NCBI GenBank assembly: GCA_014803985.1
Contig: JAAVAO010000006.1
Coordinates: 3,469 to 67,468, forward strand
Length of the DNA: 64,000 bases
Source of the DNA: Treponema sp.
Lineage (GTDB): Bacteria > Spirochaetota > Spirochaetia > Treponematales > Treponemataceae
Direction of reading: 5' to 3'
In this document: positions 20,654-26,625 of the stretch, piece after piece
How positions within the stretch are numbered: the first letter of the stretch is position 1
Layout of the letters: every line of letters begins with the position of its first letter
Translations under genes and position numbers: made by a program
Notes under the pieces: generated by a model
The model's input: the letters and a program-made list of their open reading frames with translations, nothing else
What the model was told of the DNA's origin: nothing
Database searches by the model: none

Positions 20654-21751
20654 TCAAACACTTTCAAACAAAACCTGATCTTTTTGCCCGTTTGCCTCTC
20701 CTGAAGCACGAGCAACACGACCAATTTTATATGCCTTCATATCGGGACTGTCATCTCTATGATATTTTGAAGCATTCGCATTAAAATATGCTGCAATTGC
20801 ATCGGCATCTTCATTTTTCACTGCAAGCACAAAGCCAATTCCCATATTGAACGTATTGAAAACAGAATTTTCGTCAGCACCACGGCGAACTAACTCTGCA
20901 AAAATCGGAGGAACATCCCAACTGCCTTTATGTATCACGGAAATCAACTGCCCCTCACCGTCTTTTGCCTTTGGATACATGCGCGGAATATTTTCGTAAA
21001 ATCCGCCCCCTGTAATATGAACCATTCCATGCACAGATTTTCTAAATTTTTCAAGCGCCTCCATAACAGGGCGAACATAAATTCTCGTGGGGATAAGCAA
21101 CGCTTCACCAATCGTTTTAACCTTATATCCATTTCCTGCATTGAACGGCTCATCAAAATCTTGAACCAATTTTCTCACAAGGCTAAAACCGTTAGAATGC
21201 ACGCCTGTCGAACTTAATCCGATTAAAACATCACCCTCTTCTATATTTTTGCCTGTAATCATTTCGGATTTTTCAGCCACTCCGACCGCAAAGCCCGCAA
21301 GGTCATATTTTCCATCGTCATAAAAACCCGGCATTTCCGCAGTTTCTCCGCCCAAAAGAGCGCACCCGGCATCCACACAGCCGTCAGCCACTCCTCGAAC
21401 CAAATCCGAAGCCACATCCGCATCCAACTTTCCGCAGGCAACATAATCCAAGAAGAAAAGGCTTTTTGTTCCCGAGCAAAGAATATCATTTACGCTCATC
21501 GCAACACAGTCAATTCCAACAGTATCATATTTTTTCATCTTGAACGCAATGTCAAGTTTTGTTCCAACTCCATCAGTTCCGCTAACCATAACCGGCTCTT
21601 TTAGCCCCGCAGGAACTGCAAACATTCCGTTAAAACTTCCCAAGTCGGTCAAAAGTCCGTCAATTCGAGTTTTAGCCGCCTGCTCTTTATATTTGCTTAC
21701 CGCTCGATATCCCTCTTCAACATCAACGCCAGACTCTTTATAATTTGCCAT
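20654..21751 (-). CDS. purM: Phosphoribosylformylglycinamidine cyclo-ligase PurM
   Basis: PurM closes the imidazole ring to form AIR. The block GTDGVGTKLDIAF, DCVAMSVNDILC, GGETAEMPGFY and ITGGGFYENIPRM are diagnostic. The ATG at 21751 is chosen over the ORF-track start two codons upstream because AGGAGG sits at ideal distance. The result is a 365-residue, full-length enzyme. Confidence 0.95.
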   Translation of the reverse strand: MANYKESGVDVEEGYRAVSKYKEQAAKTRIDGLLTDLGSFNGMFAVPAGLKEPVMVSGTDGVGTKLDIAFKMKKYDTVGIDCVAMSVNDILCSGTKSLFFLDYVACGKLDADVASDLVRGVADGCVDAGCALLGGETAEMPGFYDDGKYDLAGFAVGVAEKSEMITGKNIEEGDVLIGLSSTGVHSNGFSLVRKLVQDFDEPFNAGNGYKVKTIGEALLIPTRIYVRPVMEALEKFRKSVHGMVHITGGGFYENIPRMYPKAKDGEGQLISVIHKGSWDVPPIFAELVRRGADENSVFNTFNMGIGFVLAVKNEDADAIAAYFNANASKYHRDDSPDMKAYKIGRVARASGEANGQKDQVLFESV

Positions 21752-21830
21752 ACGCACCTCCTAATAAAAAGTGTAAGAATGATTTTGAAAATCGGTAGTG
21801 GCTCATCTTACCTATCTTTTCATATCTCTT

Positions 21831-22325
21831 TTAACAAAACGCCACCGATTTCTTTTCTGCGTCATCAGCCAGTTTTTTTCTAAATGCACTTATTTTTTCT
21901 TTTAAGTCGGGATATTTTATGCTTAAAATTTGAACAGCAAGATAGCCCGCATTTTTTGCGTTTCCAATGCCAACTGTTGCCACAGGGATTTGCGGTGGCA
22001 TTTGTACAATCGATAAAAGCGCATCCAAACCGCCAAGCCCATTTGAAACGCCTGGAGTTACGCATTCAAGAGGAACTCCAATTACAGGAATAGTCGTAAT
22101 TCCCGCAATCACTCCAGGCAACGCCGCCGCAAGCCCCGCACCTGCAATAATCACTTCGCAGCCATCAGATTCCACCTTGCGAACGGTTTTGTGCAACAGT
22201 TCGCCTGCACGGTGCGCACTAATCACATAAGCGGAATAGTCAACGCCAAATTCCTCAAGAACATCGGCGGCTTTCCGCATCTTCTCCTCATCCGATTGAG
22301 AGCCAAAGAAAATTGCAACTTTCAT
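21831..22325 (-). CDS. purE: N5-carboxyaminoimidazole ribonucleotide mutase PurE (class I type)
   Basis: PurE moves the carboxyl group to form CAIR. GSQSDEEKMRKA, ISAHRAG and GLDALLSIVQMPPQIPVATVGIG match class I enzymes, which need PurK, rather than the class II CO2-using PurE known from Treponema denticola. The usual AGGAAHLPG appears as AGAGLAAALPG. A GAGG Shine-Dalgarno and a TATAGT -10 lie upstream. It leads the purE-purM-purN operon. No purK is in the window. Confidence 0.9.
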   Translation of the reverse strand: MKVAIFFGSQSDEEKMRKAADVLEEFGVDYSAYVISAHRAGELLHKTVRKVESDGCEVIIAGAGLAAALPGVIAGITTIPVIGVPLECVTPGVSNGLGGLDALLSIVQMPPQIPVATVGIGNAKNAGYLAVQILSIKYPDLKEKISAFRKKLADDAEKKSVAFC

Positions 22326-22404
22326 AAAATTCCTCGCTGCTAGACTATATCATTTTTTTGATGTTATTACAATCATATTGTCCAATGCATTATGCATTAG
22401 AGCC

Positions 22405-22530
22405 TCAATGCGAAAAATCACTCCCTACCGAATTTGAAGAAAAATCACAGTTTTTTCCCGTTTTAAAAAGCCCCTCTTCCCTTGCAACAACCGAAAAAAT
22501 AAAAAGCGTTAAAATGACAACCATTTTCAT
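22405..22530 (-). CDS. Possible 41-residue secreted or membrane peptide
   Basis: Between the methyltransferase and purE a frame begins ATG AAA ATG GTT after AGGA and encodes a hydrophobic N-terminus (MKMVVILTLFIFSVVA) then a short polar tail with one Cys. It looks like a signal peptide with a tiny mature part. Coding status is uncertain; it may be a remnant. Confidence 0.3.
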   Translation of the reverse strand: MKMVVILTLFIFSVVAREEGLFKTGKNCDFSSNSVGSDFSH

Positions 22531-22608
22531 TCCTGCAATTGCCTTTACAACCACTGCATACCTTGTCATTTTTTTTACAAAATCCATCTATAATATTAAG
22601 CGTAATTT

Positions 22609-23382
22609 TCACCAATTTTTCAGAACATCAACAACATGAGAAGATGCACCCAAAAGCTCATTTCGTTCACACGTTGCAAGATGATATTCAATAAAGTGAC
22701 TAAACAGTTCATCTGTCATCGCATTGAGGGTTTTTCGCATATAGTCGCTTGGTCCGTCCTGCGCAAACATCTTTACCCGCTCAAAGCCGCATTTTTCGTT
22801 CAAAGAATTTATATCTTCAAGACGAACATAACTATAAAGGTCATCATCAGTAGTAATAGTATGAAAATCATCACTCAAGGATTTTTTTTCAAGACACTCG
22901 TTGATTTTTCCCTCTCCAAAACAATATTGTAAAACCGCATATTCGTTCATTATGTAAGCTGCAAAAATAAACCCGTCTTTTTTTGTAACACGATGTGCCT
23001 CAAGCATTGCCTTTGCCCGTTCTTCATTATTGTGCAGATGATACAGCGGCCCGAACATAATTGTAATGTCAAAAGTATTTTCATCAAGAAAAGAAAGATT
23101 TCTCGCATCCCCCTTCCATGTTTTTACATTTTCGTGCTTTGAACGCAAAATTTCCAGATTATGGGACACAAGCTCCACCGCCGTAACGTCAAAACCTTCA
23201 CGAGAGAGAGGAATGGAATATGCTCCAGTCGCCGCCCCAATGTCAAGAATTTTCACATCCCGTCTGTTTCCAATTGCCTCGTGAATATACTTCATTGACG
23301 TGACAAATTCAACCGTGCCATGCCGGGTTCGTAACCGGTTCTCCTCTTTAAATTTTGAATAGTATTTTTCAAGATTTGTCAT
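22609..23382 (-). CDS. SAM-dependent methyltransferase, class I
   Basis: The Rossmann-type motif I ILDIGAATGAYSIPLSREG and motif near ITIMFGPLYHLHNNEERAKAMLEAHRVTKKDG mark a Methyltransf_11/25-type enzyme of about 257 residues. The substrate cannot be told from sequence. It follows add by 18 bp and is probably cotranscribed. No clear Shine-Dalgarno exists; the ATG at 23382 is chosen over the TTG in the ORF track, and translational coupling to add is likely. Confidence 0.82.
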   Translation of the reverse strand: MTNLEKYYSKFKEENRLRTRHGTVEFVTSMKYIHEAIGNRRDVKILDIGAATGAYSIPLSREGFDVTAVELVSHNLEILRSKHENVKTWKGDARNLSFLDENTFDITIMFGPLYHLHNNEERAKAMLEAHRVTKKDGFIFAAYIMNEYAVLQYCFGEGKINECLEKKSLSDDFHTITTDDDLYSYVRLEDINSLNEKCGFERVKMFAQDGPSDYMRKTLNAMTDELFSHFIEYHLATCERNELLGASSHVVDVLKNW

Positions 23383-23400
23383 CGCAAAAAGAGCCAAAAA

Positions 23401-24432
23401 CTATTCTCTGCCACGCTTACTCTTAAAAGCGTCTTCAACTGCCTTTGCATATTTTGATTTTTCACTGTCAGAGATAAACAAAGCGTCAAACCCGTTTAAA
23501 ATCACCTTTTTGATTTCTTCAAGCGTAAATCCGCATTCACTGTAAAGTTTCCAATATTCATCAAGAAGAGTTGTTTTAAAGAAAACAGGATCATCGGTGT
23601 TCACCGTAACAGGAAGGTTTAAGTCAAAGAATGTTCTAATTGGATGCTCCGCTATGGACTTAACATATTTTTTCGTAAACACATTGCTCGTTGGGCATAC
23701 TTCAAGCGGAACATTTCGCTTTTTTAACTCTTCCATCAACTTTTCATCTTGAACAGCAGTAATTCCATGTCCTATTCGCTCTGCCTTCAAAAGATCGATC
23801 GCCTCCCAAATAGACTCAGGCCCCACATCCTCTCCTGCATGGGCAACAGCATGGAATCCATCTTGATGAGCCTTCTCAAAAACAGGAACAAAATCACGGC
23901 AAGGACCTTTTGACTCTGCGCCTCCAAGACCGATTCCAATAACATCCTCGCAGGGATATTCTTTTAACAAATTATAGTTATTCATTGCGTTTTCACAGCC
24001 AAACGTTCTAGAAACGTCAAGCAACAATGTAATTGTAATGCCGTATTTTTCCTTTATTTCAGCAATTTTTTTATGAAAAACAGCAATCATCGCAGGATAT
24101 GCAAATCCTTTTTTCAAAAATGCGCTCGGAGCAAAAAACGCCTCGCAGTAAACAATACCGTTATCAACAAGATACTTTGCAAGATCATCAAAAACATAGT
24201 TGAAATCATCCTCAGAAGTAAACATATCCTGCACCTTTAAGAACGCTTGAATAAACCCATTCAAATCATCATAAGAAAAGAGCGCGTTAATTTCCTCGTC
24301 AGAAAGGGACTTTTCAAACCTTTTTTGATACAAAACGCGCAAAGTTTCAATCGTTGGAACAGCCTCAATATGAATATGAAGCTCTGCCTTTGGAACGGCC
24401 TTTAAAAACCCAAAAAATTCATCTTTTGTCAT
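23401..24432 (-). CDS. add: Adenosine deaminase
   Basis: It converts adenosine to inosine in purine salvage. Zinc ligands and active-site blocks are present: AELHIHIEA (about 17), HAGEDVGPESIW, ERIGHGI, EVCPTSNVFT and VTVNTDDPVFF. The usual HLDG or HLEG at the first block reads HIEA, a Gly to Ala change. GGGAGA and the ATG at 24432 define a 343-residue protein. It shares a run with a methyltransferase and the purE-M-N operon. Confidence 0.88.
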   Translation of the reverse strand: MTKDEFFGFLKAVPKAELHIHIEAVPTIETLRVLYQKRFEKSLSDEEINALFSYDDLNGFIQAFLKVQDMFTSEDDFNYVFDDLAKYLVDNGIVYCEAFFAPSAFLKKGFAYPAMIAVFHKKIAEIKEKYGITITLLLDVSRTFGCENAMNNYNLLKEYPCEDVIGIGLGGAESKGPCRDFVPVFEKAHQDGFHAVAHAGEDVGPESIWEAIDLLKAERIGHGITAVQDEKLMEELKKRNVPLEVCPTSNVFTKKYVKSIAEHPIRTFFDLNLPVTVNTDDPVFFKTTLLDEYWKLYSECGFTLEEIKKVILNGFDALFISDSEKSKYAKAVEDAFKSKRGRE

Positions 24433-24704
24433 ACATTCTCCCATAAAAAGTCAAAAGCTCTGTGACGGAAAACTTCATTGTCAACACAAAATCACCATTG
24501 ACTTTCTAGCGCGTGCGAACACACACACATAAAATAAACAAGTTCAATCAAAGCACAAACTTGTCAAAAAGCGATTATTATTTTACCATTATTTTTTTTT
24601 ATATACAATATATTTCTTGTCGTTGCGATTGAGCAAGCAGCGTACAGTGCATGGTGTGCGATGCATTTTTTTACAGTACCATACACTTTTCAGCAAATAG
24701 GCAT

Positions 24705-24792
24705 AAAAAACGCGGTTCCTGAGTCACCTCAGAAACCGCGAAGTTCGTTTTCACGAACAATCGGAGAGAGTTTATCAGCTTTTTTACAAGCT
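24705..24792 (-). ncRNA. Candidate structured small RNA (~88 nt)
   Basis: A consensus promoter (TTGACA, 17 nt, TATACT) at 24799-24827 is followed by three hairpins and a strong terminator. In order they are CAGCTT/AAGCTG, GTTCGT-GAAA-ACGAAC, and CGCGGTTTCTGAG-GTGA-CTCAGGAACCGCG followed by T6. Two loops are GNRA tetraloops. No reading frame of interest is inside. No known family (6S, SRP, tmRNA, RNase P) was recognised. It could be a free small RNA or a terminated leader of add, whose ATG is ~270 nt further on. Confidence 0.7.
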
Positions 24793-24798
24793 GTTTGC

Positions 24799-24827
24799 AG
24801 TATATTACAAACGTACATAAATGTCAA
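24799..24827 (-). promoter_or_regulatory. Consensus promoter of the structured small RNA
   Basis: TTGACA, 17-nt spacer, TATACT: the best match to a sigma-70 consensus in this region. The rest of the gap 24433-25170 shows no other supported feature. Confidence 0.75.
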
Positions 24828-25170
24828 TTACTATTTTACTTTTCTGTTGACAAACGCTCAGTCGCAAGCGATTTTGTCCATCAGAATGAACAGTATTGTT
24901 CCTTACATTAGCGCGCAAATCTTCAGATTCAAGAGGTATTAAAAACGTCGTTTTGCAATGAAATGCTTTCGCAACAAGTACGCAAGACGAAGACTTGCTA
25001 TCGAAGTTTCAAGCGAAAACAGCAGTGGATGAGCGAGTTTACATTGCAAACGAAAATGTGCCTGTTCATTAAAACGCAACCACAAGACAGTGAAATTGAG
25101 AGAATGCTATGAAATTCTGTCCGTATTTAGTTTTTTGCAGAATATGCCGATAATCAATATGGAGTTCTAT

Positions 25171-26625
25171 ATGACAGTAAAAATCGAAGATTTAAAGAAT
25201 GGAGACAGTTTTAAAAGCGACTTGCTGCTGGACAAAAAATTTTTAATTCTTCCAAAGACCGCTGAAATGCCCGAGGAATTTATAAAAGCATTGAAAAACT
25301 GGGATTTTCGCGAGATTATGTACGAGGAAGAAGGTGAAAAAGCAATTAAACAAAACGACAACAATCCTATTATACCCCCCCCCTCCACAGAAAAACACGC
25401 TCCAAATTCTCCTCAAGAGTCGAACACAACCACAAATGCAAGTGGAAAACAAACTACTGTTAACATGAATGAACTCTTTGCCAAAAATGCGGATGACTTT
25501 TCAGATTATATTGACGATAAAACTGCTGAAAAGAACGGAATTCTAGACTCCAATGAACTCAGTCGAATAGAAATTATTCAAAAAAATTATCAAGAGTATA
25601 TGAAATTCATAAACAACATATACACATACTACGCAACGCACAGAAAAATCTCCATAGAAAATCTTACGGAAATGGTAAAAAATCTTTGCGTATTTATAAA
25701 GGACAACAAACGCTATGTTTTTAGAATTACTCCAAGTTCAGAGGCACGGGATAAGAATTTTTTGGTAATTCATTCAATGCGGTCAACTGTCATTGCAATC
25801 ACAATCGGACTTGAACTTCACTTGGAATTTTCAAAGTTGATAGAACTGGGAATTGCAACAATATTGCATGAAATCGGAATGCTGCGCATCCCCCCGCAAC
25901 TATACATAACGAACAGAATGCTCACCCCTCAAGAAAAGGCGCAAATTTCTATGCACCCATTGCACAGTTGCAATATTCTTAAAGAGCAAAACTTTCCATT
26001 AAGCATACAGCTTGGAGTCCTTGATCACCACGAAAAAGAAACGGGGCAAGGCTATCCGCGGCATTTGACAGGAGACAAAATATCCCCTTACGCAAAGATT
26101 ATCTCTGTGGCTTGCTCATTTGAGGCTATCACTGCACCTCGCACGTACAAGACCGAACAAACAACATATGATGCAATGGTTGAAATGCTTCAAAATCCAA
26201 ATCACATGTATGACACAAATACAATTAAGGCTTTGCTTTATAGCATTTCACTGTACACAATTGGTTCTTATGTCTATTTAAATGGTGGAAAGGTTGGGGT
26301 TGTGCTTGATGTGAATCCAAATGACCCTAAAAATCCAATAGTTCAAATGATCTATGAAAAGGATAAAGACGGCTCTCCAAAAACAGTGCAAACCGATGAT
26401 GGTGCAAACAAAATTGAGCGCGTACTTTCTAAAGACGAGCAACAGGAAGTCATAGAAAACATAAACAGGCAAATTGAAACAGAAAAGCGAAAAAAAGAAG
26501 AAAGAGAGAAAGCCGTTCAAGCGGAACGAGAAGCAAGAGCCGCCTCAAATACAAAAGAGCCGGTAGTAAAAAAACAAGAGAAAAAAGAAGCATTCAGCTC
26601 TGTAGATTTGAGTGACTTCATTTAA
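25171..26625 (+). CDS. HD-GYP-type protein with a C9 tract in its coding sequence
   Basis: HD-GYP proteins degrade cyclic di-GMP. The N-terminal ~60 residues resemble the short DUF3391-type region seen before such domains. A disordered linker, IIPPPSTEK, is encoded across a run of nine C. The HD-GYP core spans about 180-340, with HEIGMLRIPP where HDIGKIGIP is usual, then HHEKETGQGYPRHLTGD. So the HD pair reads HE and the Lys is Met, while the HHE...GYP part is intact; catalysis is uncertain. A long Lys/Glu-rich tail follows. The ATG at 25171 is chosen because of GGAG upstream; 484 residues. Confidence 0.82.
   Translation: MTVKIEDLKNGDSFKSDLLLDKKFLILPKTAEMPEEFIKALKNWDFREIMYEEEGEKAIKQNDNNPIIPPPSTEKHAPNSPQESNTTTNASGKQTTVNMNELFAKNADDFSDYIDDKTAEKNGILDSNELSRIEIIQKNYQEYMKFINNIYTYYATHRKISIENLTEMVKNLCVFIKDNKRYVFRITPSSEARDKNFLVIHSMRSTVIAITIGLELHLEFSKLIELGIATILHEIGMLRIPPQLYITNRMLTPQEKAQISMHPLHSCNILKEQNFPLSIQLGVLDHHEKETGQGYPRHLTGDKISPYAKIISVACSFEAITAPRTYKTEQTTYDAMVEMLQNPNHMYDTNTIKALLYSISLYTIGSYVYLNGGKVGVVLDVNPNDPKNPIVQMIYEKDKDGSPKTVQTDDGANKIERVLSKDEQQEVIENINRQIETEKRKKEEREKAVQAEREARAASNTKEPVVKKQEKKEAFSSVDLSDFI
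25375..25383 (+). repeat. Poly-C tract (C9) inside the HD-GYP gene
   Basis: Nine consecutive C at codons for Pro-Pro-Pro, ~70 codons after the start. Slippage by one base would frameshift before the HD-GYP domain, giving an on/off switch. Confidence 0.8.

Follow-up and report, generated by a model that had tools for sequence, protein, structure and literature searches.

A transcription unit on the minus strand of the Treponema sp. window (the whole 64,000-nucleotide stretch of DNA that was analysed) very probably encodes a trans-acting base-pairing small RNA (sRNA) of ~88 nt that belongs to a multi-copy family of the Treponemataceae and finds its most recurrent complementary sites in phage and prophage mRNAs. 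Three features of a base-pairing sRNA were found: a free gene, a conserved seed predicted to be accessible and complementary mRNAs encoded elsewhere. This candidate RNA is carried almost unchanged by nearly all gut and rumen Treponema, its family is absent from Rfam, and the sequence comparisons point to an undescribed RNA link between Treponema and their phages. Treponema gains a near-universal sRNA candidate with a defined seed, in a rare case in which the partner sites of an sRNA can be read from phage genomes, and whether the exploitation or disarming of a core host sRNA via mRNA-embedded sites is routine among phages becomes a testable question.

Anatomy and conservation of the sRNA gene

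The unit is encoded on the minus strand between window positions 24827 and 24705 and comprises the following features:

24822-24827, minus strand: -35 hexamer TTGACA (promoter scan)
24799-24804, minus strand: -10 hexamer TATACT, 17-nt spacer to the -35 (promoter scan)
24705-24793, minus strand: predicted transcript of ~88 nt, deduced from promoter and terminator
24776-24793, minus strand: hairpin 1, CAGCUU-GUAAAA-AAGCUG (fold prediction)
24760-24776, minus strand: near-invariant seed GAUAAACUCUCUCCGAU, predicted to be single-stranded apart from its first base
24743-24758, minus strand: hairpin 2, GUUCGU-GAAA-ACGAAC, short variant (fold prediction)
24711-24740, minus strand: hairpin 3, the intrinsic terminator stem, with a GUGA loop (fold and terminator scan)
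24705-24710, minus strand: T6 run of the terminator (terminator scan)

The preliminary description of this locus had reported a near-perfect promoter and a strong terminator bracketing ~88 nt with three hairpins, two of them GNRA-capped, and no ORF, and each of these elements was recovered. The promoter TTGACA-17-TATACT scores 11 of 12 matches and ranks best among 58 promoter-like sites in the 20 kb scanned; the start of the transcript was placed 6-7 nt past the -10 hexamer. The terminator (24740-24705), with a 13-bp stem (8 GC) followed by T6, is listed first among 28 terminator-like sites in 20 kb. GNRA loops cap hairpin 2 (GAAA) and hairpin 3 (GUGA). The minus strand folds with -38.7 kcal/mol compared with -18.5 for dinucleotide-shuffled sequences (sd 3.4; z = -6.0; 0 of 200 shuffles equal), and the z value of the plus strand is -0.75. 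The sole ORF listed across the RNA locus encodes 93 aa on the plus strand, and no protein gene is apparent.

A first DNA search gave a match in 34 of 59 genomes (the window's own among them). Every matching genome is from the same genus (a match or near-match in 34 of 35 genomes sampled, or 33-34 of 36 with the window's own counted; two of the matches were weak, with E 0.002-0.004), and the 23 remaining genomes of the order gave none. Using a covariance model built from 30 members, we detected the RNA in 169 of 196 genomes of the genus and in 79 of the 84 high-quality ones, at up to three copies per genome. Across the phylum, the model found it in 34 of 296 genomes, which represent seven genera, all within Treponemataceae; no sampled genome outside this family carried it, and some Treponemataceae genera, including a 1.1-Mb genome, gave no model match at E <= 0.01. 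Scanning of GTDB contigs revealed at least 117 loci, and every title that names a genus names Treponema (among them T. bryantii, T. ruminis, T. berlinense, T. porcinum, T. socranskii and T. brennaborense); many rumen and gut assemblies matched as well. Rfam 15 contained no family at or above the gathering cut-off and no meaningful match at permissive thresholds, and no Treponema sRNA family of this kind was found in the open literature searched. In a set of human-microbiome motifs, Treponema motifs are mentioned only upstream of ribosomal protein genes.

The covariance search in relatives, suggested along with the preliminary description, also demonstrated that the stems are conserved, with 435 pair-preserving double changes among 89 distinct relatives. 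The covariation score was 0.656 compared with 0.173 for shuffled alignments (0 of 500 shuffles as high; at most 0.144 when slid), the underlying alignment having been fitted to the model and an independent MAFFT alignment being in agreement. A promoter of at least 9 of 12 matches is present at the same offset in 143 of 150 relatives and the terminator T run in 148 of 150. The end of the -10 hexamer sits 18-20 nt ahead of GCTGATAAAC in nearly all copies, so that the RNA is expected to start at hairpin 1. Helix 1 is paired in 99.8% of cells and nearly invariant in sequence; in divergent members the sequence of hairpin 1 is replaced and its pairs are kept by double changes. Helices 2 and 3 vary freely in sequence while pairing is retained (97.5% and 98.6% of cells, with double changes at 6 of 6 and 10 of 10 pairs, respectively). 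In the majority of members hairpin 2 has the form GUCCAG..CUGGAC; the window copy has the short variant of this hairpin. The seed GAUAAACUCUCUCCGAU, positioned between hairpins 1 and 2, is nearly unchanged across members, and its 14 nt have an average probability of being unpaired of 0.86 (30 members). Overall, the near-invariant stretch spans 33 nt in the 5' half of the RNA, and the core AAACUCUCUCC persists even where hairpin 1 is wholly different. In most long-form members the terminator loop contains a small apical stem capped by GUU (AGUGUUACU, AGCGUUGCU, GAUGUUAUC etc.), which seems to covary and is absent from the window's short form.

The preliminary description had left open whether the locus is a free regulatory RNA or a terminated leader of add, and of these the former stood. 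A free-standing small RNA gene is supported by the presence of a dedicated promoter and terminator, by the covarying stems and by the many unrelated gene contexts, whereas as an attenuator of add the RNA is hardly credible. The leader reading draws on the position of add, likewise on the minus strand and the next same-strand gene, ~260 nt past the terminator. However, the copies of relatives sit elsewhere, the downstream neighbour in their common context is convergent, and the near-invariant part is the seed rather than an alternative terminator stem. Given that add is not a recurrent neighbour among relatives' copies, we rejected a leader function for add. At least one marker gene of the common context accompanies 100 of 156 copies, the remainder being found in many contexts; in this context, with neighbours named from their translations, a RadA-like gene lies divergent upstream, an EpsC/CysE-like serine acetyltransferase gene is usually convergent downstream, and NusG and L11 genes are found further out. 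The divergent neighbour of the window copy (25090-26625, HD-GYP-like by motifs) is also present in L016 and L131. Nothing was found that ties the RNA to purines. Downstream of the RNA, the minus strand of the window (20654-24444) carries PurM-like, PurE-like and methyltransferase-like genes and add in a row (names from translations).

Complementary sites in phages

Scanning of 2.9 million viral contigs of IMG/VR with a 19-nt stretch of the sRNA (the end of hairpin 1 and the seed) yielded a single contig, IMGVR_UViG_3300031993_000106, with three exact complements. This contig encodes phage portal and terminase proteins, and its sites are all intergenic within an operon of small genes, the mRNA strand carrying the complement. 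Site 3 reads UCGGAGAGAGUUUAUCAGCUUAUUUACAAGCU-AAGGAGG-UUAGCU-AUG and is complementary to the sRNA over more than 30 nt; site 1 precedes the next start codon by 140 nt. Three relatives with terminases 81-88% identical retain GGAGAGAGUUUAUC (one copy with one mismatch), and a more distant relative (terminase 64% identical) is without it. In two of the relatives the hairpin that follows is CGUAC-UUACAA-GUACG, the stem of which no longer matches the sRNA while its loop UUACAA is still complementary to UUGUAA of sRNA hairpin 1. The same two-patch design recurs in 3300028832_000200 (GGAGAGAGUUUAUCGACGUAGUUACAAGCUACG-AAGGAGG-UCAUU-AUG), a contig that has no similarity to the first phage lineage in terminase or portal.

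The sites consist of GGAGAGAGUUU followed ~7-10 nt on by UUAC(AAG), where UUACAAG matches the loop of hairpin 1; the 5' arm and loop of this hairpin (GCUUGUAA) make up the match to the second patch. For eight sites on five contigs, duplex energies were -31 to -57 kcal/mol compared with -11 to -20 for shuffled sequences, and the distance from GGAG to the next AUG with a Shine-Dalgarno sequence was 43-45 nt in five of the eight and 34, 39 and 140 nt in the remaining three; not all of the sites are independent, as those of a single phage lineage share descent, and so do those within the BspA or primase groups described below. A control pattern with the seed reversed matched no contig compared with six for the real pattern. 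The phage sites lie between phage genes, and inspection by eye revealed neither a promoter nor a terminator of their own. Matches to a 17-mer in L325, L326 and L327 of IMG/VR were set aside as being without the operon design, those of L326 and L327 lying in coding sequence. The sites at 11248-11271 of L321 and at 1986 (reverse) of L337 precede seven-codon ORFs, MRMPQAP* and MYWPTAP*, which both end Ala-Pro-stop and might encode leader peptides that stall at their end.

The hosts of these phages are probably Treponema, as suggested by the occurrence of the sRNA in Treponemataceae alone and by similarities to a Treponema prophage, the portal of which is 33% identical to that of one IMG/VR phage and the ParB-like protein 36% identical to that of the other. 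In the 40 kb read of the G165 prophage, which has portal and terminase related to those of the first phage, no good intergenic site was found.

Sites in Treponema genomes

Searching 200 genomes of the genus for the two-patch pattern revealed, besides the RNA genes, two recurrent site types. Type A, GGAGAGAGUUUGGARGCUGAUUACAAG (dG -33 to -49), was found in several genomes behind phage-type D5 primase/helicase genes, ~50 nt past their stop codons (farther in L395). A single genome has it in a capsid operon, where a phage capsid gene precedes it and the AUG of the following head gene is 44 nt downstream. In L382, L392 and L395 the site occupies a 3' UTR that faces a convergent gene. One of the type A copies, in a primase 3' UTR, belongs to a prophage of the cultured T. 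bryantii NK4A124 that is listed as a virus in IMG/VR, and the genome of this isolate, whose identity we took from identical sequence and from the record behind L111/G482, has two copies of the sRNA. Counted together, two unrelated IMG/VR phage lineages and two types of Treponema prophage carry both patches. That type A might be the C-terminus of a coding sequence was rejected, as no frame of at least 60 codons covers it and phage primase genes precede it. At ~1500 (reverse) of L371 (G015), a type A site is intergenic with no same-strand gene just upstream and an AU-rich inverted repeat after it; this site may represent a free decoy RNA.

Type B, CGGAGAGAGUUUAAU...UUUAC, was found after BspA-type/List-Bact-repeat genes in G083, G193 and G005, and in G214 a type B site without the UUAC patch follows a BspA-type gene; in all four the next AUG is 42-43 nt downstream. 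For GGAGAGAG, seven cases fell at 40-48 nt compared with 0-1 for 8-mers of similar composition, in a sample that was enriched by the search and is not a fair test. Sites of the same design are present 12-40 nt after BspA-type genes in L404, L405, L406 and L403, followed in a cassette-like manner by differing genes (for an LRR_5 protein, an AAA-like ATPase, an FRG-like protein and a small membrane protein). In G005 (L344, 1134-1541, reverse), a complement of -36.4 kcal/mol lies 48 nt before a P-II/GlnB-like gene; this site adjoins ornithine cyclodeaminase-like and amino-acid permease-like genes. Since the site occurs in one genome only (G005), P-II (GlnB-like) was rejected as a conserved target. 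A possible chromosomal target is UAUCGGAGAGAGUUUAUC (-35.2 kcal/mol) at 1844 (reverse) of L411 (G171:C52), upstream of a membrane-protein gene.

The window's own genome (assembly ~90% complete) yielded no strong or convincing site. The only exact 11-mer outside the RNA gene (G000, contig 10) lies within a metE-like coding sequence and was dismissed as chance, and 11-mers with at most one mismatch were not enriched (58 compared with 87 for reversed controls). Candidates obtained by exact 11-mers or by GGAGAGA at start codons in this genome and in T. ruminis were mostly coding or out of context, and neither search yielded a conserved host target in these two genomes.

Proposed pairing and alternative explanations

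We propose that the sRNA, transcribed from its own promoter, would pair by its seed GAUAAACUCUCUCCGAU jointly with the loop of hairpin 1 (GCUUGUAA) with mRNAs bearing GGAGAGAGUUU and then UUAC(AAG), and that intergenic regions of early-type operons, the 3' sides of D5-type primase genes and a capsid operon would be the recurrent places of such pairing. The two-patch match, the retention of the loop and not of the stem, and the recurrence in unrelated phages strongly suggest real pairing, which explains them best. Because phages could lose the sites easily, their retention suggests that binding benefits the phage. The phage mRNA may act as a decoy that titrates the host sRNA, an option favoured for the 3' UTR sites that face a convergent gene, or the sRNA may control the downstream phage gene, for which the constant distance between site and start codon speaks. 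Both may occur. With site 1 lying 140 nt from its start codon and the primase sites in 3' UTRs, a single mechanism does not have to account for every site. We consider the chances about even that the near-invariant host sRNA is an interface shared by a bacterial family and its phages, for which unrelated phages evolved or exchanged two-patch sites, thereby timing their own genes or disarming the sRNA.

The presence of sites in several phage lineages, many of them just upstream of ribosome-binding sites, and the near-universal occurrence of the sRNA in the genus would also be compatible with host defence, in which an anti-phage interfering RNA silences phage mRNAs. We regard defence as unlikely, as one or two point changes would free the phage and yet unrelated phages keep 11-14 nt of seed match together with the second patch; that loop complementarity was kept after the stem had been replaced likewise argues that binding serves the phage. 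Slightly less probable still is a purely host regulator with few chromosomal targets, such as BspA-type operons and the P-II gene, with the phage sites being functionless recombined host sequence. The chromosomal sites of the same design in G083, G193, G005 and G214 (42-43 nt before the ATG) and the site upstream of the P-II-like gene in G005 speak for a host regulator, but the P-II site is confined to that genome and unrelated phages keep the paired bases only, while flanks and stems diverge. For a multi-target sRNA, near-invariance over as much as 33 nt is unusual; it would fit an RNA that sequesters or activates a protein via its conserved hairpin and pyrimidine-rich stretch, the phage sites being a side effect. 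This explanation appears improbable, more so than the two preceding ones, as it leaves the mirror-image phage complements unexplained and no protein-binding RNA of Rfam matches.

Base pairing with phage mRNAs, the reading we prefer, places the RNA in a general class of bacterial trans-acting sRNAs that pair through a C/U-rich seed of anti-Shine-Dalgarno type. Like these, it is predicted to have a free gene with promoter and intrinsic terminator and hairpins flanking a single-stranded CU-rich seed able to pair with GGAG-type sequences. Unlike members of this class, it is not in Rfam, its 33-nt 5' half is near-invariant across the family, and its sites comprise two patches, often 42-45 nt before the start codon and not on the Shine-Dalgarno sequence. 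Phage contigs may be assignable to Treponema hosts with the help of the recurring GGAGAGAGUUU...UUACAAG site.

In E. coli O157, AgvB and AsxR are separate sRNAs of 51-60 nt encoded by lambdoid prophages, and AgvB mimics the target sequence of GcvB, showing that target mimicry allows a phage to antagonise a core sRNA (PMC4104026). The Treponema sites are similar in being phage-borne sequences complementary to a core-genome sRNA; unlike AgvB and AsxR, they are embedded in mRNAs, occur in unrelated lineages and match both seed and loop. Intergenic sRNAs of spirochaetes have been described in Borrelia (e.g. ittA, PMC7224557) and Leptospira (PMC5243855); those are from other families of the phylum, whereas the RNA described here was found in Treponemataceae alone.
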